From: a virus
IMG/VR virus record: IMGVR_UViG_3300038678_000084
Coordinates: 1-26,878 of that record
Direction: 5' to 3' (one strand)
Length of the DNA stretch: 26,878 nucleotides
Shown here: in pieces, positions 4,252 to 26,654 of the stretch
Layout of the letters: every line of letters begins with the position of its first letter
Numbering within the stretch: position 1 is the first letter of the stretch
Made by a program: the position numbers and the translations under genes
Notes under the pieces: model-generated
Databases searched by the model: none
Seen by the model: the letters and a program-made list of their open reading frames with translations, nothing else
Told to the model about the DNA's origin: nothing

Positions 4252-4325
4252 AGGGGTATAGCTCAAAGGTAGAGCAGGGGATCGATAATCCTCCGATAAA
4301 GGTTCGAGTCCTTTTGTCCCTACCA
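4252..4325 (+). tRNA. tRNA-Ile-like (anticodon GAT), CCA encoded
   Basis: A full cloverleaf can be drawn. Acceptor AGGGGTA (4252-4258) pairs with TGTCCCT (4315-4321) with two G-U pairs. D stem GCTC/GAGC encloses a 7-base loop containing GG. Anticodon stem GGGGA/TCCTC (one G-U) encloses TCGATAA, and T stem AAAGG/CCTTT encloses TTCGAGT. The discriminator is A and CCA is encoded at 4323-4325. The anticodon in canonical register is GAT (4284-4286), isoleucine. Position 33 is C, not the near-universal U, which is odd. The gene sits between two related small protein genes in the packaging region. Confidence 0.8.
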
Positions 4326-4579: not shown

Positions 4580-4771
4580 ATGAAAAGGATAGAGTTGAAG
4601 TATAGCGACAAAAAAGCCAGAGAGTATAAATACTTTCTCAGTCGACTTTATAACAACAATCGAGTCGGACTTAAAAAATTAATCGAAATGGCGGTAATAA
4701 AGGCCGTCAATGAGGGTGCTCAAAAGGAATTGGATCAAGCTCGAAAGGAATTAGAGGACATGGGCGAATGA
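4580..4771 (+). CDS. Small helical protein (63 aa)
   Basis: ATG at 4580 after AAGGGGTGA. The product starts with a strand (KRIELKY), then two or three helices, closing with an acidic coil (KELDQARKELEDMGE). The order strand-helix-helix could fit a ribbon-helix-helix protein, but I see no clear match. It ends with a 4-base ATGA overlap into the large terminase, so it is translated with it. Confidence 0.6.
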   Translation: MKRIELKYSDKKAREYKYFLSRLYNNNRVGLKKLIEMAVIKAVNEGAQKELDQARKELEDMGE

Positions 4772-6204
4772 CAGAACCAGCTTTAAAGACAAGTGACGAG
4801 ACTCTCCTCGGGCTGATCGGAACTTTTAATCTCTTTCAAGCTGAGGATCGCCTCTCTGGTTTCGTTCGAGGCGTCCTGGCTATTATAGATCCTGGAACCC
4901 TTTACAAACATAACTGGCACGTCGATCTGATATGTGAATACCTGGAGGCGGCCTGGAGACGTGAGATCCGACGTCTGGTGATTAATATCCCGCCTCGATT
5001 TATGAAGTCGACCATAACAACGATTGCCTGGCCAGCCTGGATCCTCGGCCACAATCCAAGCGAACAAATAATATGCGCCTCTTACTCCTCGTCGCTTGCA
5101 ATCAAACACTCGGTAGAGTGTCGTCTTGTAATTCAATCTCTCTGGTATAGATCTCTTTTTCCGGACGTGATGCTTACCGGCGACATGAACGTCAAGAGCG
5201 AGTTTGTCACTACCAAAAGAGGCCACCGGATTGCAACGAGTGTCGGAGGTACCACGGTCGGTAAGGGTGGTAATATCCTGATTGGGGACGATATCCTTAG
5301 TCCCGAACAAGCTCTCTCTGATACGGTTCGCCAGACGGCTAATGACTGGATCGATCAAACTTTCTTAACCAGGTTCAACGACGAGAAAACAGGTGTCTTT
5401 GTTAACGTGCAACATCGATTGCATGAGGCGGATCCGACGGGACACTTGATCGAGAAAGGTGGCTTTACAGTCCTATCAATACCAATGGAGGCTGAGAAAA
5501 GAACGATTATTGATTTTGGATCCGTGAAGGTTAAGCGCAAGGCCGGCGGTCTCTTGCATCTGGAGCGGTTCGGAAAGGCTGAGGTTGCTCAGAAAAAGAG
5601 AGACGTCGGGTCGTATGCCTGGGCTGGCCAGTATCAACAGAGGCCGGCTCCTCTTGTGGGCGGCATGATTCAACTCTCCTGGTTTAAGCGTTATAAAGTA
5701 AAACCGAGAAACGTCATAAGGAGGATCCAGTCCTGGGACACGGCCGGCAAAGGGAAGGAGATCAATAATCCGTCGGTTTGTGGTACCTGGCTCGAGACGG
5801 AAAAAGGTTATTACCTGGAGGACGTTTACAGGAACCGGATCGGATATCCAGGGCTCAAACGTGCTGCCAAGAGTAAGTATAAGCAAAAGAGACCGGATCT
5901 GATATTGATCGAGGATAAGTCCAGCGGTGAGGTTTTGATCCAAGACTTAAGAGAGGATCCAGAGGATCATTATCCGATAAAGGCTATCATGCCGGTTAAC
6001 GATAAGATTACTCGAATGTCAACGGCCTCTCCGACGATCGAGGCTGGCCTGGTATGGTTGCCGGAAAACGCTCCCTGGCTGGCTGACTTTGAGCTGGAGA
6101 TCTCTAACTTTCCAAATAGCGAGACAGCGGATCAGGTTGATATGGTGTCACAATTTCTAAACTATGTTAAGAAAAGGACGAGGCCGAGGGTCTCGGTGCT
6201 TTGA
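4768..6204 (+). CDS. terL: Terminase large subunit
   Basis: 478 residues, the usual size. The ATPase half has a P-loop variant IPPRFMKST (residues 74-82), Walker B with catalytic acid ILIGDD (170-175), and the coupling motif QHRLHEADPTGHL. The C-terminal RNase-H-like nuclease shows SWDTAGKG (Asp324), LIEDKSSG (Glu382/Asp383) and DQVDMVSQFL (Asp458), the expected acidic triad. The protein drives DNA into the prohead and cuts the concatemer. It belongs to the Terminase_6-type large terminases by motif. ATG overlaps the previous gene by four bases. The gene is rich in GATC sites (about 16 in one kb). Confidence 0.96.
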   Translation: MTEPALKTSDETLLGLIGTFNLFQAEDRLSGFVRGVLAIIDPGTLYKHNWHVDLICEYLEAAWRREIRRLVINIPPRFMKSTITTIAWPAWILGHNPSEQIICASYSSSLAIKHSVECRLVIQSLWYRSLFPDVMLTGDMNVKSEFVTTKRGHRIATSVGGTTVGKGGNILIGDDILSPEQALSDTVRQTANDWIDQTFLTRFNDEKTGVFVNVQHRLHEADPTGHLIEKGGFTVLSIPMEAEKRTIIDFGSVKVKRKAGGLLHLERFGKAEVAQKKRDVGSYAWAGQYQQRPAPLVGGMIQLSWFKRYKVKPRNVIRRIQSWDTAGKGKEINNPSVCGTWLETEKGYYLEDVYRNRIGYPGLKRAAKSKYKQKRPDLILIEDKSSGEVLIQDLREDPEDHYPIKAIMPVNDKITRMSTASPTIEAGLVWLPENAPWLADFELEISNFPNSETADQVDMVSQFLNYVKKRTRPRVSVL

Positions 6205-7590: not shown

Positions 7591-7663
7591 CATACTAAAT
7601 TTATAACTTTGACAATTAAATAGGCTTTCCTGGATTGGCCTCCAGGGTGCCAAGCAATTTAAG

Positions 7664-7700
7664 AGACCGTCTTTCGTGCACGACGAGGGGCGGTCTTTTT
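7664..7700 (+). terminator. Rho-independent terminator before portal gene
   Basis: AGACCG (7664-7669) pairs with CGGTCT (7691-7696), continuing straight into TTTTT. The loop holds the palindrome TCGTGCACGA. Just upstream, CCTGG (7629-7633) and CCAGG (7641-7645) form another hairpin, itself flanked by GGC and GCC. Together these could set readthrough into the portal gene, whose ATG is at 7722. Confidence 0.65.
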
Positions 7701-7721
7701 GTTTGGCTGGAGATTGAACTT

Positions 7722-8990
7722 ATGACGATTAGACAAAGGATCGGTAATGCAATTAAGAGGACGGGATCCTGGCGGCCGTTTAGAAAAGAATCAGCGATCG
7801 GCAAAGCGGTTGCCCTCTTTAAGTTGGGTCAGCCGGTATGGACTCCCAGGCAATATGATAAGCTCGCCGAGGAAGGTTATCAAAAGAACGTTATCGCTTA
7901 CTCGTCGATCAACATGGTCGCCAGGGGAGCGGCATCGATTGAGTGGACACTTAATAGGAAACGAGCAGACAAGCTCATTGAGATTAAAGAGCACCCCCTC
8001 TTGACACTTCTTAACCGGCCGAACCCTCTCCAGGGAGGATCGGCTTTTCTTGAGTCCATGTATGGATATTATCTTATAGCTGGTAACAACTACATTGAAA
8101 GCATAACGAACACGAGAGGGACGCCACTTGAGCTTTACACGCATCGTCCGGACAGAATTAAGATTGTCCCTGGAACGTTCGGGCTCCCCCAGGCTTACGA
8201 GTACACGATCAATGGGGTCTCTCAAAGGGTATGGGAGGTTGATCAGATCCGAGGCAAGTCTCCTCTCCTCCATAATAAAATGTTTCACCCGTTAAACGAT
8301 TGGTACGGCATGAGTCCTCTTGAGGCGGCGGCTTTCTGGATTGATATCCACAACCAAGCCGGAGCCTGGAATAAGTCGCTTTTAGATAACGGAGCCAGAC
8401 CGTCGGGAGCTCTGATTGTAAAAGAGGAGCTGGGGAATTTAACAGTGGAACAGAAAACAGAGCTCAAGAAAGAATTAAGAGAGGCTTATGCTGGAGCAAC
8501 TAATGTCGGCCGGCCGATGTTGTTAGAGGGTGGTATGGACTGGAAAGAACTCGGCCTCTCTCCTAAAGACATGGAATATATCGAGAGTAAGAACACGTCC
8601 GCCAGAGATATCGCTCTTACCTACGGTGTCCCGCCGATGTTGCTCGGTATTAAAGGTGACAGCACGTTTAATAATCAGAGAGAGGCCAGGCTCTCACTCT
8701 GGGAAAATACAATCCTCCCACTGGCTTATTTGCATCGTGACGAGTTTAATAACTGGCTCGTCCCGATGTTTGATCCTTCACTCGTCCTGGGGCTCAATGA
8801 AGATAAGATCCTCGCTCTGGCTCCGAGGCGTGACGCTATTTGGGACAGAGTCAAGGGAGCGGAACATTTAACTCTCAATGAAAAGAGAGCGGCAACAGGA
8901 CAAGACGAAAAGCCAGGCGGCGACGAGCTCTATGTCTCAATGACACAAGTCCCGCTCGGGCTCGGTGACGTAAAAAAAAAGAATACTTGA
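7722..8990 (+). CDS. HK97-family portal protein
   Basis: 422 residues, typical length. ATG 7722 chosen because CTGGAGA lies 8 bases before it and a terminator rules out the earlier in-frame start at 7635. HK97-portal marks are clear: an N-terminal helix with NVIAYSSINMVARGAASIEW, EHPLLTLLNRPNPLQGGSAF, the G-N-N-Y-I-E segment, WYGMSPLEAAA, then N-G-A-R-P-S-G and YGVPPMLLG...STFNNQREA. It forms the dodecamer at the DNA entry vertex. The gene ends in A9G then AAT-ACT-TGA; the -1 frame is open through to the next gene, so a portal-MuF fusion is possible. Confidence 0.95.
   Translation: MTIRQRIGNAIKRTGSWRPFRKESAIGKAVALFKLGQPVWTPRQYDKLAEEGYQKNVIAYSSINMVARGAASIEWTLNRKRADKLIEIKEHPLLTLLNRPNPLQGGSAFLESMYGYYLIAGNNYIESITNTRGTPLELYTHRPDRIKIVPGTFGLPQAYEYTINGVSQRVWEVDQIRGKSPLLHNKMFHPLNDWYGMSPLEAAAFWIDIHNQAGAWNKSLLDNGARPSGALIVKEELGNLTVEQKTELKKELREAYAGATNVGRPMLLEGGMDWKELGLSPKDMEYIESKNTSARDIALTYGVPPMLLGIKGDSTFNNQREARLSLWENTILPLAYLHRDEFNNWLVPMFDPSLVLGLNEDKILALAPRRDAIWDRVKGAEHLTLNEKRAATGQDEKPGGDELYVSMTQVPLGLGDVKKKNT
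8972..8981 (+). other. Slippery run A9G before portal stop (candidate -1 frameshift)
   Basis: Nine A and a G, read in the portal frame as AAA-AAA-AAG, give the canonical heptamer A-AAA-AAG. Slipping back one base gives GAA-TAC-TTG-AAC, which runs without a stop into the gene starting at 8987. The same A9G run occurs at 17887-17896 in the tail chaperone. Confidence 0.45.
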
Positions 8991-9793
8991 ACCTGGGCTA
9001 TAAGGTCTTAAACGATCTCACTCCCCAGGCAAGGCTAAGAGAATGGCAATCACAACAAACGATAATGATCGCAATGGAAAGGGCTCTCATTAAGCGCATG
9101 GAGAATTTACTTATAAAACAGGGTCAGATCTCGGCTGAGGCTTTTGAGTCAGATGGTAAGCAGGGCGTCGAGCTCTCTTTTCGGGATCATCCCCAGGAAG
9201 TCGAAACACTCCTGGTTGCTCATTATGGCGTCGTCATGCAGACTTTCGGCCAGCGGATCGTTGACGGAATCTCAAAAGAAAAGTCGGAGGCTATCCTGGA
9301 GAGTAAAGATCAACAGTCTTTCTTTCGCCGATCTATTGTCGAGTGGGTCGAGCAACATGCAGGCAACAAGATCACGCAGATTGCCAAGACCACGAAAGAA
9401 GAAACTATCCTGTTGGTAAGGGCTACCGTGCGACAAGCTGAAACCGAGGGGTGGGCGTTATCTAAGATCGTCAAACAGATCAGAGAGGGCACGGCAATTA
9501 AAGCGGCTTACAGAGCACGCCGGATTGCTATTACCGAGACTCACTCGGCGGCGGTTGCGGCTGGAGATATGGCAGCGGATTCAACTCAGTTGCCATTACA
9601 AAGAGAATGGATGGCGGCGCTTGATGGACGGGAGAGATCTTCGCACGCAGACCTGAACGGTCAGAGAAAACCAATGAAAGAGCCTTTCCAGGGCAACGGG
9701 TTTTTAATCATGCGTCCTGGGGATCCCAGAGCACCGGCCGAGGAGACGATCAATTGCAGATGTTCAATTATCTACGTCACAAAGGAGGCATAA
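8987..9793 (+). CDS. Minor head protein, MuF/SPP1 gp7-like
   Basis: The C-terminal 110 residues have the MuF-domain marks: R-I-A-I-T-E-T-H-S-A, EWMAALDGRERSSHADLNGQ, a P-F-x-G turn, RPGDPRAPAEETINCRC. Such proteins are packaged minor head or ejection components bound to the portal. The N-terminal half is helical. The best initiator in this frame is TTG 8987, which overlaps the portal stop (TTGA) and has no real RBS; the next choice is ATG 9064. The absence of an RBS fits either tight coupling to portal translation or production as a portal fusion through the A9G site at 8972. Confidence 0.85.
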   Translation: MNLGYKVLNDLTPQARLREWQSQQTIMIAMERALIKRMENLLIKQGQISAEAFESDGKQGVELSFRDHPQEVETLLVAHYGVVMQTFGQRIVDGISKEKSEAILESKDQQSFFRRSIVEWVEQHAGNKITQIAKTTKEETILLVRATVRQAETEGWALSKIVKQIREGTAIKAAYRARRIAITETHSAAVAAGDMAADSTQLPLQREWMAALDGRERSSHADLNGQRKPMKEPFQGNGFLIMRPGDPRAPAEETINCRCSIIYVTKEA

Positions 9794-9794
9794 A

Positions 9795-10073
9795 ATGAGG
9801 GACAAGAATAGAAAACCTGTCGTTGTTTATATGGTAGGAAAGCGAACGGAAACTGGAATATTGACAGGCAAGATCCAGGATTACAAAGGAACATTTAACA
9901 CCAAGAAAGAGGCACTCGACGCTTGTACGGATCCGTCGTTGAAGTATTACACTGTTGAGAATACTCCAGAGGCGATCTATACCTACATTCCAAACCTCAG
10001 TAAAAAGGTCAAAGGCAAAGGCGGTACGACCAATTTAAAGGCAACGCATGAAGTTGACGGCGAGGACAGCTAA
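9795..10073 (+). CDS. Hypothetical protein (92 aa)
   Basis: ATG at 9795 after AAAGGAGG at 9780-9787. The product has strands near the start (KPVVVYMVGKRT), a middle with N-T-K-K-E-A-L-D-A-C and Y-Y-T-V-E-N-T, and a basic tail. It is not recognised. It begins the four-gene stretch between the minor head protein and the protease that is not typical of head modules, and is followed closely by the SpeD-like gene. Confidence 0.6.
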   Translation: MRDKNRKPVVVYMVGKRTETGILTGKIQDYKGTFNTKKEALDACTDPSLKYYTVENTPEAIYTYIPNLSKKVKGKGGTTNLKATHEVDGEDS

Positions 10074-10078
10074 GAATA

Positions 10079-10453
10079 ATGTCAAAGCCTTACGGAAACG
10101 AATTGATCCTGGATCTGCATTTATGCGATACGACTAAATTTAATCGCAAAGATATTAAGAGGTATTTCGAGGATCTCTGCAAGCTGATTAACATGAAAAG
10201 GGAGGATCTACACTTTTGGGATTACGAGGGAGATCCGGAGGGTTACAAAGCGGCGCCGGTTCACTTGAAAGGGACAACAGCCGTCCAGTTTATCAGCACG
10301 AGCAATATAGTCATTCACACGGTTGACGATATGCGAAACGCCTATATTAACATTTTCTCTTGTAGGGAGTTTAATCCGAACACAGCTCAGAAGTTTACTA
10401 TGGATTACTTTAAAGGGCTTGTCGTTAAAGCGGTCTTTACTGAAAGGAAATAA
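10079..10453 (+). CDS. speD: S-adenosylmethionine decarboxylase-like (SpeD) pyruvoyl enzyme
   Basis: The 124 residues follow the class 1B AdoMet-decarboxylase plan: G-N-E-L-I-L-D-L-H at the start, then AVQFISTSNIVIHTVDD and AYINIFSC. Against bacterial SpeD (A-V-V-V-I-S-E-S-H-L-x-I-H-T ... F/Y-T-C-G), the self-cleaving serine corresponds to Ser75, the processing His to His80 and the catalytic Cys to Cys95; the residue before the serine is Thr, not Glu, and the His after it is Asn. Such enzymes make decarboxylated AdoMet for spermidine; some SpeD homologues have shifted to ornithine or arginine decarboxylation. Whether this one self-processes, and its substrate, cannot be told from sequence. 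Base use matches the phage, so it is not a very recent arrival. Confidence 0.72.
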   Translation: MSKPYGNELILDLHLCDTTKFNRKDIKRYFEDLCKLINMKREDLHFWDYEGDPEGYKAAPVHLKGTTAVQFISTSNIVIHTVDDMRNAYINIFSCREFNPNTAQKFTMDYFKGLVVKAVFTERK

Positions 10454-10992
10454 TGAATGTTGTCTTAACTAAAGAGTTTTTACAAAAAGAATATATCAAG
10501 AAGAAAAAACCTATCAACCAAATTGCTAAGGATGCTTCTTGTGGTGTGGGAACTATTTTTAATTACCTTAAAAAATTTAAAATAAAAACAAGAACTTATT
10601 CAGAGTTAATGCGGGGGAGCAATAATCCAAATTTTAGAGGAATGTCCTTAAATCATCGTAAGAACATTAGTAAGGCGAAAAAAGGAAATAGAAACAGTTT
10701 TAAGGGAGGGCGAAATTATAACGATGCAGGATATATTTTAATCCACATGCCTACTCACCCTTTCAGTAATAACTGCGGATATGTTCGTGAACATCGTTTA
10801 ACATTAGAAAAATATCTTGGTCGATATTTAAAACCAAAAGAAGTTCCCCATCATCTAAATGAGGTTAAGGATGATAATAGGGTGGAAAATTTACTACTTT
10901 TTGCTTCTCAGTCTGCACATGTGAGGTTTGAAAACAATAGAACAGTAAAACCAGAAGAAATTATATTTGATGGGAGAAATTGTAATGTTTAA
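10453..10992 (+). CDS. HNH homing endonuclease with N-terminal HTH
   Basis: 179 residues. Residues 15-50 form a resolvase-like HTH (PINQIAKDASCGVGTIFNYL), residues 60-90 a basic N-x-N-F-R-G/K-x-G-x-R linker as in NUMOD-type homing enzymes, and the C-terminal half an HNH_3-like nuclease (GYVREHRLTLEKYLGR, VPHHLNEVKDDNRVENL, then S-A-H). The start overlaps the speD-like stop (TAATG) and the end overlaps the start of the DUF3326 gene. The gene is AT-rich and contains no GATC at all, unlike its neighbours, so it is a recent free-standing insertion between the two enzyme genes. Confidence 0.88.
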   Translation: MNVVLTKEFLQKEYIKKKKPINQIAKDASCGVGTIFNYLKKFKIKTRTYSELMRGSNNPNFRGMSLNHRKNISKAKKGNRNSFKGGRNYNDAGYILIHMPTHPFSNNCGYVREHRLTLEKYLGRYLKPKEVPHHLNEVKDDNRVENLLLFASQSAHVRFENNRTVKPEEIIFDGRNCNV

Positions 10993-11995
10993 TACAGTTC
11001 TCATAATTCCGACAGGAGTCGGGGCGGAAATAGGCGGCCACGCCGGAGACGCAAATCCGGTCGCCAAACTGATCGGCTCGGTATGTGACAAAGTCATATT
11101 GCACCCGAACGTCGTCAACGCCTCAGACATTAACGAAATGCCGGATAACGCTCTTTATGTCGAGGGATCCATACTCGATAGGTTCCTCGAAAAGAAGATC
11201 TCGCTCCAGGAGGTCAAGAGTAATCGGGTATTAGTTGCGACTAATGCGCCGGCCTCGAGTGATATTGTCAATGCCGTATCAGCGGCGAGAGCAACCCTAG
11301 GTCTCGATGCTGTAATAGTTGAGCTCGAAACTCAATTAAGAATGGTCGCAACGTTAAACGGGTCCCAGGCCAGCGGGGACGTTTACGGCTGGAAAGATCT
11401 TGTCGAACAGGTCAGCCAGTATGACTTCGATGCCCTGGCCATTGCCTCACTGATCGAGGTCGATATGAAAATCGCCACAAGCTATTTAAAAAGCGGAGGA
11501 GTTAATCCCTGGGGTGGCGTCGAGGCGAAAGCCTCACGGTTAATCGCTGAGGCATTAAATAAGCCGGTCGCCCATGCGCCAGTCGAAAGCGACGCCTTGA
11601 AAGATTTTAAAGAGATTGTCGATCCTCGCATGGCGGCGGAAATGATCTCGAGCTCTTATCTACATAGTGTCTTAAAAGGATTACAGAAAGCGCCGAGGAT
11701 CGGGAAAGGGTTATCCGTTAAGGACGTTGATTGCCTGGTCACTCCCTGGGGCTTATATGGCCGGCCGCATAGGGCTTGTTTAAAAGAAGGGGTCCCAGTT
11801 ATTGCAGTTAGAGAAAATAAGACAATCGGTTGCATTGAGCATCCCAAGTACACAAAAGTCGACAATTATCTCGAGGCCGCCGGCATGATCCAGGCCATGA
11901 GAATAGGAATAATGCCTCAATCGGTGAGACGGCCGCTCGAGGAGACTCAGGTTATTAAAAATATGGAGGTCAGTTATGGAATACAAAGAGCTTGA
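10985..11995 (+). CDS. DUF3326-family protein (336 aa)
   Basis: I chose ATG 10985, 8 bases after GGGAGAA; TTG 10967 and ATG 10970 are in frame upstream. The start I-I-P-T-G-V-G-A-E-I-G-G-H-A-G-D-A followed by L-H-P-N-V-V-N-A-S, then N-A-L-Y-V-E-G-S-I-L-D-R-F, A-A-R-A-T-L-G-L-D, the G-G-V-N-P-W-G-G-V-E-A segment, A-H-A-P and a close of TPWGLYGRPHRACLKEG with I-A-V-R-E-N, is the full-length plan of DUF3326, known to me from cyanobacteria and plants. Function is unknown; the G-x-G-x-x-x-G-G-x-x-G-D-A loop suggests a nucleotide or phosphate site, which is inference. It is odd in a phage head cassette. GATC content is like the phage, so it is well settled. Confidence 0.82.
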   Translation: MFNTVLIIPTGVGAEIGGHAGDANPVAKLIGSVCDKVILHPNVVNASDINEMPDNALYVEGSILDRFLEKKISLQEVKSNRVLVATNAPASSDIVNAVSAARATLGLDAVIVELETQLRMVATLNGSQASGDVYGWKDLVEQVSQYDFDALAIASLIEVDMKIATSYLKSGGVNPWGGVEAKASRLIAEALNKPVAHAPVESDALKDFKEIVDPRMAAEMISSSYLHSVLKGLQKAPRIGKGLSVKDVDCLVTPWGLYGRPHRACLKEGVPVIAVRENKTIGCIEHPKYTKVDNYLEAAGMIQAMRIGIMPQSVRRPLEETQVIKNMEVSYGIQRA

Positions 11996-12632
11996 ATATG
12001 AGGTCAAGGCAGTAGGCGAGAACGGAGAATTTGAAGGACTGGCCGCTGGGATCGGCAATCTGGATCTCGGAAACGACAAGATCTTAAAAGGGGCTTTCAA
12101 GGAGACGATCGCAAAGGGTGTCCATTGGCCGATCTTAAGCTCACACCGTATAAAGGAGCACCTGGGATATAACCTCGAGGCAAAAGAGGTCAGCGAAGGA
12201 CTTTTTGTTAAAGGTCAACTCAACCTGGAAGTGCAGACGGCCAGGGAGAAACACGCTCTTGCTAAACAGGCTAAAGCAGTCGGCGCAAAGATGGGGCTCT
12301 CTATCGGCTACAATGCCGTTGAGTTTGAGTACGTCGACAAGGGGAATATCCGAGAACTCAAAAAGGTTGATGTACTCGAATATAGTATGACGGCCTTAGC
12401 AATGAACCCGAAAGCAAACGTAATTAATATCAAACAAGCTGACGGCGGGATCCTGGAGATCGAGGATCCGTCTTTAATAGACAATGTAAGAGATTTTGAG
12501 GTCTTCCTGCGAGATGTAGGGATCTCTAAATATAGGGCTAAGGTAGCGGCCTCAGTTATCTTTCAGCGAGACGTTGAAGGTGCGGAACTGATAAAGGCTA
12601 TCAAAGATCTAACAAAAAGTATGACTATTTAA
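11976..12632 (+). CDS. Prohead maturation protease (HK97 family, S78-like)
   Basis: 218 residues. ATG 11976 lies inside the DUF3326 3' end (20-base overlap) after ATGGAGGT. The serine-protease marks are present: SSHRIKEHLGYN (His57), MGLSIGYNA (Ser109) and the strand VDVLEYSMTALAMNPKA. The C-terminal 45 residues (NVRDFEVFLRDVGISKYRAK) match the usual R-D-F-E-x-F-L-R-D-x-G tail of these proteases. It cleaves the capsid N-terminal scaffold domain and itself during head maturation. Confidence 0.93.
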   Translation: MEYKELEYEVKAVGENGEFEGLAAGIGNLDLGNDKILKGAFKETIAKGVHWPILSSHRIKEHLGYNLEAKEVSEGLFVKGQLNLEVQTAREKHALAKQAKAVGAKMGLSIGYNAVEFEYVDKGNIRELKKVDVLEYSMTALAMNPKANVINIKQADGGILEIEDPSLIDNVRDFEVFLRDVGISKYRAKVAASVIFQRDVEGAELIKAIKDLTKSMTI

Positions 12633-12659: not shown

Positions 12660-13910
12660 ATGAATATGGAAGAAGTCAAAACCGCAGTCGATACACTCGG
12701 GACGACTTTCGAGGCGTTTAAAAACGCAAACGACTTGCGATTAAAAGAGATTGAGACAAAGGGTAATGCTGACCCGTTGCTTGAGAAGAAAGTCGACGAC
12801 TTAAATATTGCGATCGACGACGCAAAGGCAAAGCTCGACTCATTCGACGAGACCAATACTAAGGCGGAGGAGAAACGTCAAGAGACAATGGACAGGATCG
12901 AGGCAACGATCCAACGTATCGGCAAGGGCGGAACTCCAGGCGGAGAGGTTAAGTCAGCCGAGGTTATCGAGCATGAAAAGGGCTTTATAAGTTATATGAG
13001 AAAGGGTCTTGAAGATGGTCTCCCTGAGCTCCAGGAGAAAGCTCTCTCAGTAGGTGTCGACTCAGAGGGCGGATATCTGGTACCACAAGAGATCTCATCC
13101 AGGATCATAACAAAGGTCTTTGAGACAACTCCCATGAGACAGCTTGCGTCGGTTGAGACGATTAGCGGTGACTCTCTCGATATCCCCAGGGATTACGACG
13201 AGGCCACAAGTGGCGGCTGGGTAGGTGAGAAAGCAACGAGAGGCGAGACCGATACTCCGGACGTTGGCATGTTAAATATTCCAGCACATGAGCAATACGC
13301 CGAACCCAGGGCGACTCAAAAGTCGCTTGACGATATCGCTCGGAATCTGGAACAGTGGCTCGCCGCTAAGATTGGCAGTAAGTTTGCGAGGATTGAAAAT
13401 ACAGCCTTTATAAGTTCAGCCGGCGTCGCCTCTCCACGAGGCATCTTGACTTATACCGCTGGTACTGGTGATCGTCAGATCGAGCAAATAAGCTCAGGAT
13501 CTAACGGAGCCGTTACGGTTGCGGGCTTAATAAGCCTCCAGACTGCATTGTTTGAGGAGTATCAGGCAAACGCATCCTGGTTGATGGGACGGGCACTTAT
13601 GGGAGCTATCAGGAAACTCAAAGGGACTGACGTTTATTGGTTCCAGCCAAGTTTCCAAGTTGGCGCACCCTCAATGATTATGGGTCGTCCTGTATTCCTG
13701 GGCTCAGATATGCCAGTGGCAGCAACTAACTCTCTCTCTATCGTGTATGCTGATTTTAGAGAGGGTTATACCATCGTTGATAGGACTGGGATCCGTACCT
13801 TAAGAGATCCTTTTACAGCCAAGCCTTTTGTGAAGTTTTACACGACCAAGAGGACTGGCGGAGCGGTAACGAACGAGCAAGCGATCAAGATTCACAAGTT
13901 GGCCGCTTAA
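12660..13910 (+). CDS. Major capsid protein (HK97 gp5 fold)
   Basis: 416 residues. ATG 12660 is 9 bases after CGGAGG; a second ATG at 12666 is possible. Residues 1-110 are a charged coiled-coil scaffold (delta) domain. The mature capsid then starts near residue 115-130, with the classic E-G-G-Y-L-V-P-Q-E-I (SEGGYLVPQEISSRII), M-R-Q-L-A-S-V, GGWVGEKA, and a late SMIMGRPVFLGSDMPV plus V-Y-A-D-F-R-E-G-Y-T-I-V-D-R. Cleavage by the upstream protease is expected between scaffold and mature parts. Confidence 0.96.
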   Translation: MNMEEVKTAVDTLGTTFEAFKNANDLRLKEIETKGNADPLLEKKVDDLNIAIDDAKAKLDSFDETNTKAEEKRQETMDRIEATIQRIGKGGTPGGEVKSAEVIEHEKGFISYMRKGLEDGLPELQEKALSVGVDSEGGYLVPQEISSRIITKVFETTPMRQLASVETISGDSLDIPRDYDEATSGGWVGEKATRGETDTPDVGMLNIPAHEQYAEPRATQKSLDDIARNLEQWLAAKIGSKFARIENTAFISSAGVASPRGILTYTAGTGDRQIEQISSGSNGAVTVAGLISLQTALFEEYQANASWLMGRALMGAIRKLKGTDVYWFQPSFQVGAPSMIMGRPVFLGSDMPVAATNSLSIVYADFREGYTIVDRTGIRTLRDPFTAKPFVKFYTTKRTGGAVTNEQAIKIHKLAA

Positions 13911-20891: not shown

Positions 20892-23800
20892 ATGTTAAGT
20901 TTCCCGACTAATTTTGAGGCAGAGAAAAACTTAAAAACTGGGATCTCTCCTGTTTGGTTTTTGAAATGTCCGTTTACCTCTCCTGGAACAAGATATATTT
21001 CCGATCGTGTCTTTAATATTCCAGGCTGGGACGGATCTCCGACGACTAAGTCCTGGGTTAAGAGTTGGACGCCAATAGATGAAAATATCGACAGCGGGAT
21101 TGCAAGTCCGATTGTCTCGGATATGTCCCTGGAGCTTATAAATGATCCAGACGACGCTAACAATATAGAGGCCATTCTTGAGAGCGCAAGCAATAATATT
21201 GAGACGACAGATTGTGAGTTGTATTTATGGTTTCTCGGCCTAGATGCCACAACGGATCCGCCTCAAATAATGTGGGTCGGCAATATGATTGACTGGAGGC
21301 AAATTAACGAGCTTATATTCTCAATGGAGCTGGTCGATCAATCAGTTAAAGTTAATAAATATATTGGGAGCAAGATTGACAAGACGGATTATCCCAGCGC
21401 GGATCCAGACGATATCGGAAAGATCGGGAATATCGGTTACGGAACGGTCGTAAAAGTTCCGACACTCGCTATCCTGGCCGGTGCTCTTGACTTCCTGGAC
21501 GGTGATATTACGGCCGCCGCAACGACTCTCGACGTCGGCGACGCCTCAGAGTTTCCAAGTTCCGGAACCGTCGGCATCGAGGAGGAGGAAATCGATTACA
21601 GCGGAAAGAGCTCGAACCAATTAACAGGGCTCACGAGGGGAGTCAACTCGACAACGGCCGCCGTCCACGTTGACGGAATGGCAACTTGGGAGGTTCGATC
21701 TGATTTTACATATCAGGCTTTCGATCACCCGATAAAAACTTTTAACAAAGTTTGGGCGGTGGGATCTAACGTCCGGCTTAATATAACATCGATCGTTACA
21801 ACGTACACTGGCCAGAGCGGGGATCAACACGGCACCTGGCCAAATAAAGGAATGATTGTCGTTCCGAGCAAGATAACTAAGTCCCAGGCGGTAAGTTTAG
21901 GGGTTAGCGATACGATCGGGATCACTGACGGTATGACTATTTCCGATCTACTTATTATATTAGATCCGTCTCACTCTCACAGCGTCTCAGGCGGCGGAAA
22001 TGCCTCGCCGTCTTATGCGAGTTGTTTACCGACGGGATCTTTTAGCTGTATTCAGATGCACGACTCGAATGACTCAACCTGGGGCTGGCTAAATTCAGGA
22101 TCCCCGACTATCACGAATAACTATACTCACGGCGTCCCCGAGTCCGGAAGGCGGCCGACGAGAATCAGTGTAACAATAAAAGCGGAGTTTTGGAGTGGGA
22201 CACCCTCAGCCTCACAACTAAGAGTCAACGGGGTATATTTCGGGGTCGGGACTGAGTTTCCAAATCCGGCCGACTCTAAAACGGTATGGATCCCAGCGAA
22301 CGCCTGGGGCGACGTGACAAGCGTATTGCTCACGATGAACAACTCCGCAAGCTGGCATATTCACGAGATAATATTTAACAGTTTTGATTGGGAGTTTACC
22401 GGCACGAGCACAAGTCCGGCCGGAGTTTTAAGATCCGGAACGGTTGATAGGAGCGGTGATATTACGAAGTCAGGGACTGTTACTTTGAGCGGTGTTTCGG
22501 TTGCCGATATCGTTGTCGCTGATAGTGTTCTGGTCGATGCTGACTGTTACCAGGACGACGGATCCGGAACATTTACAGGAACCCCTAACGCATTGATCGA
22601 AAGGGCTGACCATGTATTCAAACATTTTTTATATACTTATGGAGCCTGGCCGGTTGCAAACTTTGAGACAGACGCCGGAAGTAAGTTTAGCTCCAGGAGT
22701 TATAATTTTGCGGGCGTTATAAACGAGCAAAAGAAGTTTAAAGAATGGCTCTCGATCCTGGCGTTTCAGTGCCGATGTTATTTCCGGTTTCATGCCGGCA
22801 AAGCTAAATTGATATGGCGTCCCTCCGGTATTCCGGCGTCGGAAAAAACTATAACCGATTTAATGATCCGTATGTTACCGGATGCGACCACGTCAAAAGA
22901 GATCTCAAGATCGCCGATCACTGACGTTATTAACAAAGTGGATTTACATTATGATCGAGAGTGGATGCAGTCAGGCGACGGGGCTTACAAAGAAATTTCA
23001 AAAGACTCCGACTCGGCATCGATCACGAAATATGGCGAGAAAGAAATCCCCGAGTTGTTCTTTTTTGACTTTGTAAGAACACAAGCAATGGCCGACGACG
23101 TGCGGGATTTTTACCTGGAGAAGTACAAGGATCGCTGGAAGATATCGAGCCAGGAGGTTTTCCTGGACAATTCAGAGCTGGAGTTTTCAGATGTTGTCAC
23201 TTTCGACGGGACGACAGTTTATGAGATATTAAAGTCGAACATTTACCCTGGGAGTGGAAGGGATAAGCGAAACGATAGGATCCTCCTCTCAGCTATCGAA
23301 AGAGGGACGTTTTTCCCGAGTATCTCTTATGCTCCGTCTCCGGCAATAAGTATAGCTGGGATAGTCAATCCGACGGTACTCTCAGGAACGCAATTAACAC
23401 CGGCGCAGTCGACAGCGGTTGCCGCTAAAGTGGATCCGAGCGTCGTCCTGGGGAGTTTAACTATTCAGCCGGCGCAATCAGTTTCCGTTGTTAGCTCAGT
23501 CGACCCAGGCGTTGTTGTAGGCGTTCCCGAAGTTACAATATTGGACTCCTGGAATGGTATTCCTAACTTTACTGAGGGCAGTTTTGCTCCGAGTGCCGGA
23601 TCTGATAGGCTTGTCGTTATTGCTATCTCTTACGAGGATAGCTCAGGGGCGAGGAGTATTACCTCTTGCAGTCTCGGTGACAAAAATTTGACTCAAATAG
23701 AGATGCGGAGTCAAGGGACGACTTTTAGAAATGGCCTTTATCTCGGCTATTTGAAAGAGTCCGATATCGCCGCAAGGACAGGGGACGCTATCACGTTTGC

Positions 23801-24164
23801 ATGGGACACGACTCCCGACGCTGAGATTCATGTCGCATGGGCTTGTTATGAGGGCGCTCACCAAACGACGCCAATCCCCGATACGGCTTGGGCGACCGTA
23901 CAAAACGATAACAGTCTCCAGGTCAGCTCGACACTTGATGCCAACGAAGGTGATATTGTTTTTTATGGTACGACGACGGGGAATGGGGGCTCTAACCATA
24001 CGCCGGATAGTGGCTACGCTGAAAAGATCGAACTTGATACGTCTATTTTCTCAAAGGCAATAGCGACGAAAGCTATTACGGGAAGCGGAACAGAACAGCC
24101 GACGGCAACATGGAACTCAGCTCATAGAATAGTCATTATAGGGGCAACAATACAAGCGGCATAA
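20892..24164 (+). CDS. Tail tip hub / host-specificity protein (1090 aa)
   Basis: Starts one base after the previous stop. Residues 1-190 form a first tail-hub-like domain. Residues 195-262 carry a common phage motif: D-V-G-D-A-S-E-F-P-S-S-G, I-E-E-E-E-I-D-Y-S-G, L-T-G-L-T-R-G-V. The middle (about 555-720) is baseplate-hub-like: N-A-L-I-E-R-A-D-H-V-F-K-H-F-L, E-W-L-S-I-L-A-F-Q-C-R-C-Y-F-R-F. Residues 813-880 hold three 23-residue V-x-P repeats like those at 25924. Residues 880-1090 are a C-terminal beta domain found in phage tail adhesins. It is probably the central tip protein carrying receptor contact. Confidence 0.8.
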   Translation: MLSFPTNFEAEKNLKTGISPVWFLKCPFTSPGTRYISDRVFNIPGWDGSPTTKSWVKSWTPIDENIDSGIASPIVSDMSLELINDPDDANNIEAILESASNNIETTDCELYLWFLGLDATTDPPQIMWVGNMIDWRQINELIFSMELVDQSVKVNKYIGSKIDKTDYPSADPDDIGKIGNIGYGTVVKVPTLAILAGALDFLDGDITAAATTLDVGDASEFPSSGTVGIEEEEIDYSGKSSNQLTGLTRGVNSTTAAVHVDGMATWEVRSDFTYQAFDHPIKTFNKVWAVGSNVRLNITSIVTTYTGQSGDQHGTWPNKGMIVVPSKITKSQAVSLGVSDTIGITDGMTISDLLIILDPSHSHSVSGGGNASPSYASCLPTGSFSCIQMHDSNDSTWGWLNSGSPTITNNYTHGVPESGRRPTRISVTIKAEFWSGTPSASQLRVNGVYFGVGTEFPNPADSKTVWIPANAWGDVTSVLLTMNNSASWHIHEIIFNSFDWEFTGTSTSPAGVLRSGTVDRSGDITKSGTVTLSGVSVADIVVADSVLVDADCYQDDGSGTFTGTPNALIERADHVFKHFLYTYGAWPVANFETDAGSKFSSRSYNFAGVINEQKKFKEWLSILAFQCRCYFRFHAGKAKLIWRPSGIPASEKTITDLMIRMLPDATTSKEISRSPITDVINKVDLHYDREWMQSGDGAYKEISKDSDSASITKYGEKEIPELFFFDFVRTQAMADDVRDFYLEKYKDRWKISSQEVFLDNSELEFSDVVTFDGTTVYEILKSNIYPGSGRDKRNDRILLSAIERGTFFPSISYAPSPAISIAGIVNPTVLSGTQLTPAQSTAVAAKVDPSVVLGSLTIQPAQSVSVVSSVDPGVVVGVPEVTILDSWNGIPNFTEGSFAPSAGSDRLVVIAISYEDSSGARSITSCSLGDKNLTQIEMRSQGTTFRNGLYLGYLKESDIAARTGDAITFAWDTTPDAEIHVAWACYEGAHQTTPIPDTAWATVQNDNSLQVSSTLDANEGDIVFYGTTTGNGGSNHTPDSGYAEKIELDTSIFSKAIATKAITGSGTEQPTATWNSAHRIVIIGATIQAA
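23328..23530 (+). repeat. Three V(D/N)P-type repeats in hub protein
   Basis: Protein repeats of 22-23 residues around A-G-I-V-N-P-T-V-L-S-G, A-A-K-V-D-P-S-V-V-L-G-S-L and V-S-S-V-D-P-G-V-V-V-G. They separate the hub from its C-terminal domain and match the array at 25924-26565 in another gene. Confidence 0.75.
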
Positions 24165-25292: not shown

Positions 25293-26654
25293 ATGGCTGA
25301 AGTAATATATGAAGGTTTTGAGGGGATTGGGTATGAAAACAGCTGGGCTGAGACTGTAGAATCTGGCTGCACTCTCAATGAAGATGATACGTTACCTGTA
25401 AATACAGGTACTTATTCACTCCGATCATTTACGGTTAGTGGTGGCAATACTGAAGATTCTGCTTATGCTAAGCATGATTCTGGTGCTGGCGAAGCAGTCA
25501 ACTATGTTCAGTTTGAGATATACTTTAATGCTTTAAACATGTCTGGTGGTAATACAGTTCAACTTATGTATATGACCACGGACTCAGGTGGTAGTTCTAT
25601 TGCTATACGATTAGACCTTTTCCAGACGAGCGGTACTAATAAATTAAGGATGTATTATTGGGACGATTCATTACAGAACATAGACTCAGTTGCTACAGTC
25701 ACGACGGGTCAGTGGTATAAGATTGAAATTAAATATGATACTACAGGTAATACGTATGATTTTCTAATAGATGATAGTTCGGAGGGTAGTGGAAGTTTAA
25801 CAGGTGCGAATAGATCGCCAAGATATTTATTCCTCGGACAAATAGCGGGAACTGCAGCTGGTAATATTGATCTTAACATAGATGATTTTAAGTGGGATGA
25901 TGCTGAGTTTCCTGGTGGCGGCGTTAGTGTTACTCCCTCTCCGACTTCTTGCGTTAGTAATAGAGTAAATCCGACGATCGAGCTGGGGAGCTTGTCTCTT
26001 GCCTTATCTCCAGCGTTAGCGATTGCCGCCAGAGTAAATCCGACGATCGAGTTGGGGAGTCTCTCCCTAACACCGAACCCAACAACAAGCGTCGCCGGCA
26101 TAGTGGATCCGATCGCAGTCCTGGGGAGCTTGTCAGTTACTCCAGGGATAATCACGGCGATAGGCGCAACGGTGGATCCGACGGTCGAGATAGGAGCTCC
26201 AGGAGCCGTCCTGGTCGTACCGTCTCCAGTGACAGCGGTTGCGGGGGTAGTCAATCCGACAATCGTATTAAGTAGTATGGCGATAACGCCGAGTCCGACA
26301 GCGGCGATCTCAGGGCGGGTCAATCCGGTTATTGTCCTGGGCGGACTCTCTCTCAGTCCGAGTCCTGTAACGAGTGTCGGCGTCGCTATAGATCCGACAA
26401 TTACCCTGGGGAGTATTTTAATCGTGCCGGTGGCCTCCTCAGCGGTTGCCTCGATTGTAGATCCGAGTTTGATCCTGGGGACTATCTCGATCACTCCGAC
26501 GTCGACAGCGGTTATCGTTAGCACGATTGATCCGGTTGTCCTGGCTGGGATCCCCGCCGTCTCGATTGCCTCGGAGGTTAGAATAATTACAATCGACACA
26601 CGGAGACGATCGATCAACATCGATTCGACTCGCCGGATAATAACAAAACATTAA
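25293..26654 (+). CDS. Lectin-like tail adhesin with V(D/N)P repeats (453 aa)
   Basis: Residues 1-208 form a concanavalin/LamG-like lectin: E-G-F-E-G at the start, S-L-R-S-F, a run of strands, then TTGQWYKIEIKYDTTGNTYD and N-I-D-L-N-I-D-D-F-K-W-D-D-A-E-F. Residues 212-425 are nine 23-residue repeats, then a basic tail (T-R-R-R-S-I-N-I-D-S-T-R-R). The lectin DNA is AT-rich and poor in GATC, while the repeat DNA is GATC-rich like the phage, so the protein looks like a new head on an old stalk. Probably a receptor-binding fibre. Confidence 0.75.
   Translation: MAEVIYEGFEGIGYENSWAETVESGCTLNEDDTLPVNTGTYSLRSFTVSGGNTEDSAYAKHDSGAGEAVNYVQFEIYFNALNMSGGNTVQLMYMTTDSGGSSIAIRLDLFQTSGTNKLRMYYWDDSLQNIDSVATVTTGQWYKIEIKYDTTGNTYDFLIDDSSEGSGSLTGANRSPRYLFLGQIAGTAAGNIDLNIDDFKWDDAEFPGGGVSVTPSPTSCVSNRVNPTIELGSLSLALSPALAIAARVNPTIELGSLSLTPNPTTSVAGIVDPIAVLGSLSVTPGIITAIGATVDPTVEIGAPGAVLVVPSPVTAVAGVVNPTIVLSSMAITPSPTAAISGRVNPVIVLGGLSLSPSPVTSVGVAIDPTITLGSILIVPVASSAVASIVDPSLILGTISITPTSTAVIVSTIDPVVLAGIPAVSIASEVRIITIDTRRRSINIDSTRRIITKH
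25924..26565 (+). repeat. Nine 69-base / 23-residue repeats in adhesin
   Basis: Consensus near T-P-S-P-T-x-A-V-A-G-x-V-D/N-P-T-I-V-L-G-S-L-S-L. The first two units are almost identical in DNA: AGAGTAAATCCGACGATCGA at 25962 and again at 26031, 69 bases apart. The later units have diverged. Confidence 0.8.

Follow-up and report, generated by a model that had tools for sequence, protein, structure and literature searches.

The window, that is the whole 26,878-nucleotide stretch of viral DNA analysed here, contains a head module which is of the normal HK97 type according to PHROG and NCBIfam matches. Within this module, an open and intact frame on the plus strand is translated into a full-length DUF3326 protein. 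The gene and its surroundings comprise the following features:

4768-6204: terminase, part of the HK97-type head module
7635-8990: portal, part of the HK97-type head module
8987-9793, plus strand: minor head/head morphogenesis (MuF-like) protein (phrog_2468, E=1.8e-45)
9795-10073, plus strand: open reading frame of 92 aa, directly upstream of the cassette described below
10079-10453, plus strand: SpeD-like pyruvoyl-type decarboxylase, 124 aa (PF02675, 52.6 bits, cut-off 25)
10453-10992, plus strand: HNH homing endonuclease (PHROG HNH, E=8e-21; PF13392)
10985-11995, plus strand: DUF3326 protein, 336 aa (PF11805, E=1.6e-69)
11976-12632, plus strand: HK97 prohead protease (TIGR01543, 61 bits, cut-off 59)
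12660-13910, plus strand: HK97 major capsid protein (TIGR01554, E=2e-101)

The initial annotation had recognized the whole DUF3326 plan in the product of 10985-11995 and had proposed a profile search against PF11805. This search gave a significant match (E=1.6e-69, 235 bits, cut-off 25) that covers nearly the whole profile, with residues 3-314 aligned to profile positions 1-336 of 337, and all motifs quoted earlier were found. The phage-like, GATC-rich base use ascribed to the gene is likewise confirmed by a GC content of 0.498 and 8.9 GATC/kb, compared to 0.462 and 10.3/kb for the window. For the window as a whole, this GATC density is well above the approximately 4/kb estimated from base composition alone; the HNH gene has none. 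Translation of DUF3326 starts at the ATG at 10985, which is preceded by GGGAGA, with an in-frame TTG upstream at 10967, and the end of the gene overlaps the start of the prohead protease by 20 bp. The minor head protein and the protease had been named correctly as flanks, but the three genes between the minor head gene and DUF3326, including the SpeD-like gene, had gone unmentioned. The 92-aa frame had no PHROG or NCBIfam match and only sub-cut-off Pfam matches. Elsewhere, the window carries a phage-borne tRNA-Ile (GAT) at 4252-4325 among small genes upstream of the terminase, and tail-region proteins (25293-26654 and 20892-24164) with many repeats like V-x-P-[ST]-P-x-x-x-V-x-x-x-V-[ND]-P-x-[IV]-x-L-G-S-[LI].

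DUF3326 is also present in cyanobacteria and plants, to which the family had been assigned at first; its range extends to Planctomycetota, Chloroflexota, Pseudomonadota, Fidelibacterota, Verrucomicrobiota, and others. Its presence in plants is documented (PMC13294368). No counterpart was found in PHROGs, INPHARED phages or PLSDB plasmids, so that DUF3326 is a novelty among annotated phages.

An alignment search of IMG/VR revealed 54 DUF3326 loci, from which 50 non-redundant viral records, window included, were used. A SpeD-like gene is encoded in the locus of 47 of these. The distance from its stop to the DUF3326 start lies between -26 and +35 bp in 35 of 45 pairs, with -4 (an ATGA-type overlap) being the commonest value, and three further pairs are separated only by the N-terminal extension of a long-form DUF3326. 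Exceptions to this close pairing are the window with its HNH gene, two records with endonuclease-type genes in between (L018 and L019), one with reversed gene order (L022), and one in which the intervening gene reads as an acetyltransferase (L044). After clustering of all flanking genes, no other neighbour family occurred in more than six of the 50 loci, terminase being the most frequent. This indicates that the SpeD-like gene and DUF3326 move together between unrelated phages, outside the head machinery. The description of DUF3326 as settled in a head cassette was therefore misleading: the gene recurs in about 50 viral records, but at differing positions, for which reason the reading as a conserved head gene was rejected. 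Within the viral branch, the divergence of the two proteins is correlated (Spearman 0.38, with none of 1000 permutations as high); as this correlation is only moderate, some reshuffling of partners is likely.

The association is not strict: DUF3326 is found without SpeD on two long phage records (350 and 46 kb), and several records carry a SpeD-like gene without DUF3326; the latter (L058, L066, L070, L071, L073-L076, L078-L081, L084) may hold clues to the substrate of the SpeD-like protein. In one phage record without SpeD (L047), a phosphatidylserine-decarboxylase-like gene at 4970-5689 (PF02666, E=2.9e-26) overlaps the start of a long-form DUF3326. The pairing of DUF3326 with a decarboxylase is well supported, and no description of it was found in the literature available.

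The HNH gene that separates the two partners in the window differs in composition from its surroundings, with a GC content of 0.315 and no GATC compared to a GC content of 0.42-0.50 in neighbouring genes. Its frame begins with MNVVL (5' end ATGAATGTTGTC / ATGAATGTTGTCTTA), and these are the first five residues of DUF3326 in uninterrupted relatives such as L013 (ATGAATGTTGTT / ATGAATGTTGTTCTT). The endonuclease of L018 begins similarly with MNIVL, and in both loci the DUF3326 gene behind the endonuclease restarts from a new ATG (MFNTVLIIPTG in the window, MNIVMIIPTG in L018). Homing-endonuclease-type genes of differing kinds are thus found exactly at the SpeD-DUF3326 junction in the window (10453-10992), in L018 (806-1605) and in L019 (5394-6001); those of L018 and L019 read as GIY-YIG-type endonucleases, an assignment made from their sequence and not from a family search. 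Judging from two loci, it looks as if homing endonucleases inserted themselves at the very beginning of the DUF3326 coding sequence, within its first codons, and captured the start, which was then rebuilt downstream. In this phage, an HNH homing endonuclease has been inserted between the SpeD-like gene and DUF3326, apparently using the original start of DUF3326, which restarts from its own ATG.

Splitting of the pair by a homing endonuclease and the varying position between phages could mean that DUF3326 is a passenger without effect on this phage. This is highly improbable, given that the gene is intact with all invariant residues kept and phage-like base use, has its own ribosome-site-like sequence, overlaps the protease start, and has been kept in about 50 diverse viral records. 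Of the auxiliary metabolic or DNA-related job that the initial annotation had envisaged, the metabolic part is supported by the intact gene, its recurrence in these records and its tie to a decarboxylase, and the DNA-related part found no support.

The SpeD-like protein of the window has the profile and the fold of class 1b SpeD proteins. Its structural model (pLDDT 96.8) matches the AdoMet decarboxylase (AdoMetDC) of Thermotoga maritima (1tmi, TM 0.79/0.83, E=1e-8), and its residues S75, H80, and C95 align with S63, H68, and C83 of that enzyme, which are needed for self-processing and catalysis (PMC10407285). Among 78 aligned relatives, 75 have kept this Ser/His/Cys set, two more show a one-residue change in spacing and one is without Cys. 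Of 75 relatives, 74 are without the proline typical of AdoMetDC (HTWP gamma-Pro), and the window protein has Asp83 in its place; canonical SpeD genes located beside SpeE in these genomes have kept the proline. Together with a TIGR03330 equivalog score of 30 bits, well below the cut-off of 75.65, this led to the rejection of a bona fide AdoMet decarboxylase.

Several observations point to another substrate. Core positions of the relatives hold Gln (69 of 75), Thr (67 of 75), Phe (75 of 75), and Tyr or Phe (72 of 75), and Gln, Thr, Phe, and Tyr are named as diagnostic of SpeD-derived ornithine decarboxylases by Li et al. 2023 (PMC10407285). The corresponding residues of the window protein (Q70, F71, T74, Y89) are likened to this set by kind and not by position, and a Leu following the conserved His-Thr counts against the match. 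Furthermore, a full-length SpeE match is missing in 11 of 16 genomes with the SpeD-like gene, and the remainder carry a separate SpeD beside SpeE. The same genome pattern served in PMC10407285 to recognize SpeD proteins that had acquired a new substrate. A direct role in the spermidine pathway was set aside in view of the usual absence of SpeE, and the SpeD-like partner is not the usual SpeD of that pathway; ornithine would be a first guess for its substrate, and arginine a second. Another SpeD branch (ESH...HTFP...NIDxFSC; L172-L176) occurs in genomes of the NspC-like type and is not located beside SpeE.

SpeD homologues that are encoded by phages and decarboxylate ornithine or arginine have been described before (PMC9992855; SpeDC/SpeDA, PMC10407285). 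They share with the window protein the small class 1b SpeD fold, the Ser/His/Cys residues, the loss of the AdoMetDC proline, and a Gln/Thr/Phe/Tyr core that is likened in residue kind, not in position. In contrast to these homologues, the window protein appears to belong to a distinct branch, with only two INPHARED records matching at E<1e-3 (31% identity), and its usual neighbour is DUF3326 and not a known triamine synthase.

A genome scan yielded 152 DUF3326 relatives, and the best 80 of these 152 were kept; the sample consists mostly of MAGs and leaves out the cyanobacterial copies. Two forms exist, a short one in phages and a long one with approximately 90 extra N-terminal residues in most bacterial copies sampled. 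The likeness between the phage form and the PF11805 proteins of cyanobacteria, plants, and other bacteria extends over the whole domain, with all invariant residues shared. What distinguishes the phage form from the bacterial one is the absence of the extension of about 90 aa and its place in a well-supported, mainly viral branch: 60 rows with the window and nearly all viral rows split from the rest, which is almost all long form, with a support of 99.

In the 64 long-form bacterial loci, DUF3326 is accompanied either by a SpeD-like gene (30 loci) or by an NspC-like gene (31 loci), never by both, and by neither in the remaining three; the partner state switches at least seven times on the DUF3326 tree. 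A corresponding distribution is found in 39 whole genomes, with NspC-like genes in 21, SpeD-like genes in 17, and neither in two. Only one genome (G001) contains both kinds of partner, and there DUF3326 is present twice, in a long copy beside the NspC-like gene and a short copy beside the SpeD-like gene. The NspC-like protein is a PLP-dependent decarboxylase with an alanine-racemase fold that is unrelated to SpeD, and its TIGR01047 scores of 252-307 bits stay below the cut-off of 409. In a branch from Planctomycetota, Verrucomicrobiota, and Lentisphaerota, neither partner is located near DUF3326, and the same apparently holds for the cyanobacterial gene, which is located with fed3 and DUF650 (PMC4284462). 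With the phosphatidylserine-decarboxylase-like gene mentioned above, three unrelated decarboxylases thus occupy one slot, and of all the evidence this argues most strongly for DUF3326 acting in concert with a decarboxylation step.

NspC-like decarboxylases beside a partner enzyme are also known from the CASDH/NspC gene pairs. In contrast to these, the partner here is DUF3326, which has no kinship to saccharopine-type dehydrogenases detectable by profile comparison; most genomes with NspC-like and DUF3326 genes are without the PF16653 dehydrogenase domain, and the NspC-like scores lie below the CASDH/NspC-type cut-off given above. DUF3326 was also considered as a missing triamine synthase, because about 10 of the 39 genomes are without matches to SpeE, PF16653, and DHS; the case is weak given the gaps in MAGs and a count that has no background set, and it was rejected.

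The further neighbourhood of the pair varies. Upstream, a GspS-like ATP-grasp ligase with DUF1190 and DUF350 is found (17, 14, and 12 loci, respectively), and L106 has a pyruvoyl arginine decarboxylase (PvlArgDC; PF01862, E=3e-55). Downstream genes encode AMP-binding enzymes (six loci) and glutamine-synthetase-like proteins (four loci). The context thus speaks for amine metabolism. In Rhodospirillales-type loci, the ligase, DUF350, and DUF1190 found near the pair are those also known from SpeD/GspS-like/DUF350/DUF1190 operons linked to PspA (PMC11237479). The constant part here is, by comparison, the SpeD-like-DUF3326 pair; DUF3326 is not named in the passages on those operons, and PspA was not conspicuous among the gene families that recur around the pair.

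The recurrence of amide- or acid-activating enzymes of these three kinds, together with the link of related SpeD/DUF350/GspS operons to membrane stress (PMC11237479), could indicate that the cassette makes a non-polyamine amine, which a ligase joins to a carboxylate or peptide, e.g., as a membrane or stress conjugate. Since the phage cassettes are without a recurrent ligase neighbour and both the SpeD and NspC families have known members in polyamine pathways, such a product is considered unlikely.

Other upstream genes were observed as well. Repeatedly (L130, L136, L138, L143), the pair is preceded by a gene for a membrane protein of approximately 400 aa to which no Pfam family matched. PtuA and PtuB, the ATPase and HNH proteins of Septu, are encoded directly upstream on the same strand in L103, L104, L109, L117, L121, L125, L137, L141, and L158, which represent several phyla; five of the nine loci were assigned with PADLOC (E down to 1e-65) and the others by clustering. 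From this Septu association in about nine bacterial loci, and from the fact that other upstream genes (membrane protein, cyclase-like plus methyltransferase) vary while the pair stays, it might be concluded that decarboxylase and DUF3326 together produce a small molecule that serves a defence or signalling operon, with which phages interfere by carrying the pair. This is very unlikely, however, as defence genes are missing from most loci and cluster by chance, and the phage copies show no signs of inactivation. It is also quite unlikely that decarboxylase and DUF3326 act as a general source of a small, amine-derived molecule not yet described, which would feed several kinds of bacterial operons (GspS-like ligase, Septu-type PtuAB, membrane proteins), with phages carrying this source alone to adjust or disturb the level of the molecule in the host.

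The structural model of DUF3326 (pLDDT 90.7, pTM 0.87) consists of two alpha/beta domains with boundaries derived from structure matches, one formed by both chain ends (residues 1-75 and 245-310) and the other by residues 77-240. No significant fold match was found in PDB or BFVD, the best Foldseek hits having E values of about 1e-3 and TM scores of at most 0.30; carbamoyltransferases were among the weak rows with TM scores of at most 0.24. VIA-align matches to half-domains of proteins such as lumazine synthase and glycosyltransferases reached Z scores of at most 9.1 and were taken as generic alpha/beta matches. A Pfam scan of 80 members found only DUF3326, and hhalign comparisons with DHS, saccharopine-type dehydrogenases, OTCases, NspC-like, and SpeD proteins revealed no relationship (all probabilities below 1% for the DHS, saccharopine-type, and OTCase sets) and no internal duplication.

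Across 80 relatives, with the window and with phage and bacterial members included, 28 columns are invariant. Many of the invariant residues are polar, including T10, N42, N45, S47, D48, N55, Y58, N174, E180, H197, E219, and E297; Asn, Asp, Glu, His, and Tyr are frequent in the invariant set, which contains no Cys or Lys. It would suit an enzyme that does not use thiol or Schiff-base lysine chemistry, and together with the gene context it suggests that DUF3326 is an enzyme. Tight translational coupling and 1:1 pairing would also be expected if DUF3326 were a subunit that binds, activates or chaperones the decarboxylase, and the predicted alpha/beta structure with its two domains could accommodate a small ligand. 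Specific subunit contacts are hard to reconcile with partners of three unrelated decarboxylase folds, DUF3326 also occurs without a neighbouring partner, and its many invariant polar residues suggest an active site, which makes a non-enzymatic role unlikely.

The preferred reading, with a probability of roughly 0.6, is a mobile auxiliary metabolic cassette of two genes, in which DUF3326 comes second and acts in the same short polyamine-type pathway as an amino-acid decarboxylase. Its basis is what can be read directly in the DNA, i.e., family membership, pairing, coupling, partner swaps, and the intervening HNH gene; from there we infer catalysis, substrate, order of steps, and a benefit to the phage. 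The product of the first gene would be a small amino-acid decarboxylase of the self-cleaving pyruvoyl type with its origin in the AdoMet decarboxylase SpeD. DUF3326 would either use the amine released by this enzyme or act before it, by making the amino-acid-type compound to be trimmed by the decarboxylase; the substrate field is most likely polyamine-type. The best single guess, which is tentative and may well be wrong, is that the SpeD-like enzyme converts ornithine to putrescine, followed by a DUF3326-dependent step on putrescine. The phage cassette would represent a variant of phage-borne polyamine-type metabolism that is apparently undescribed.

DUF3326 is an unexplained conserved family that is scarcely mentioned in the literature. 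The repeated swap of unrelated decarboxylases narrows the search for its function to a step next to amino-acid decarboxylation, and the pairing gives the family a first testable role in making or using polyamine-like amines, for which the two-gene phage version offers a small system for bench study. Among the polyamine-type functions carried by phages, the cassette would contribute a step not described so far.
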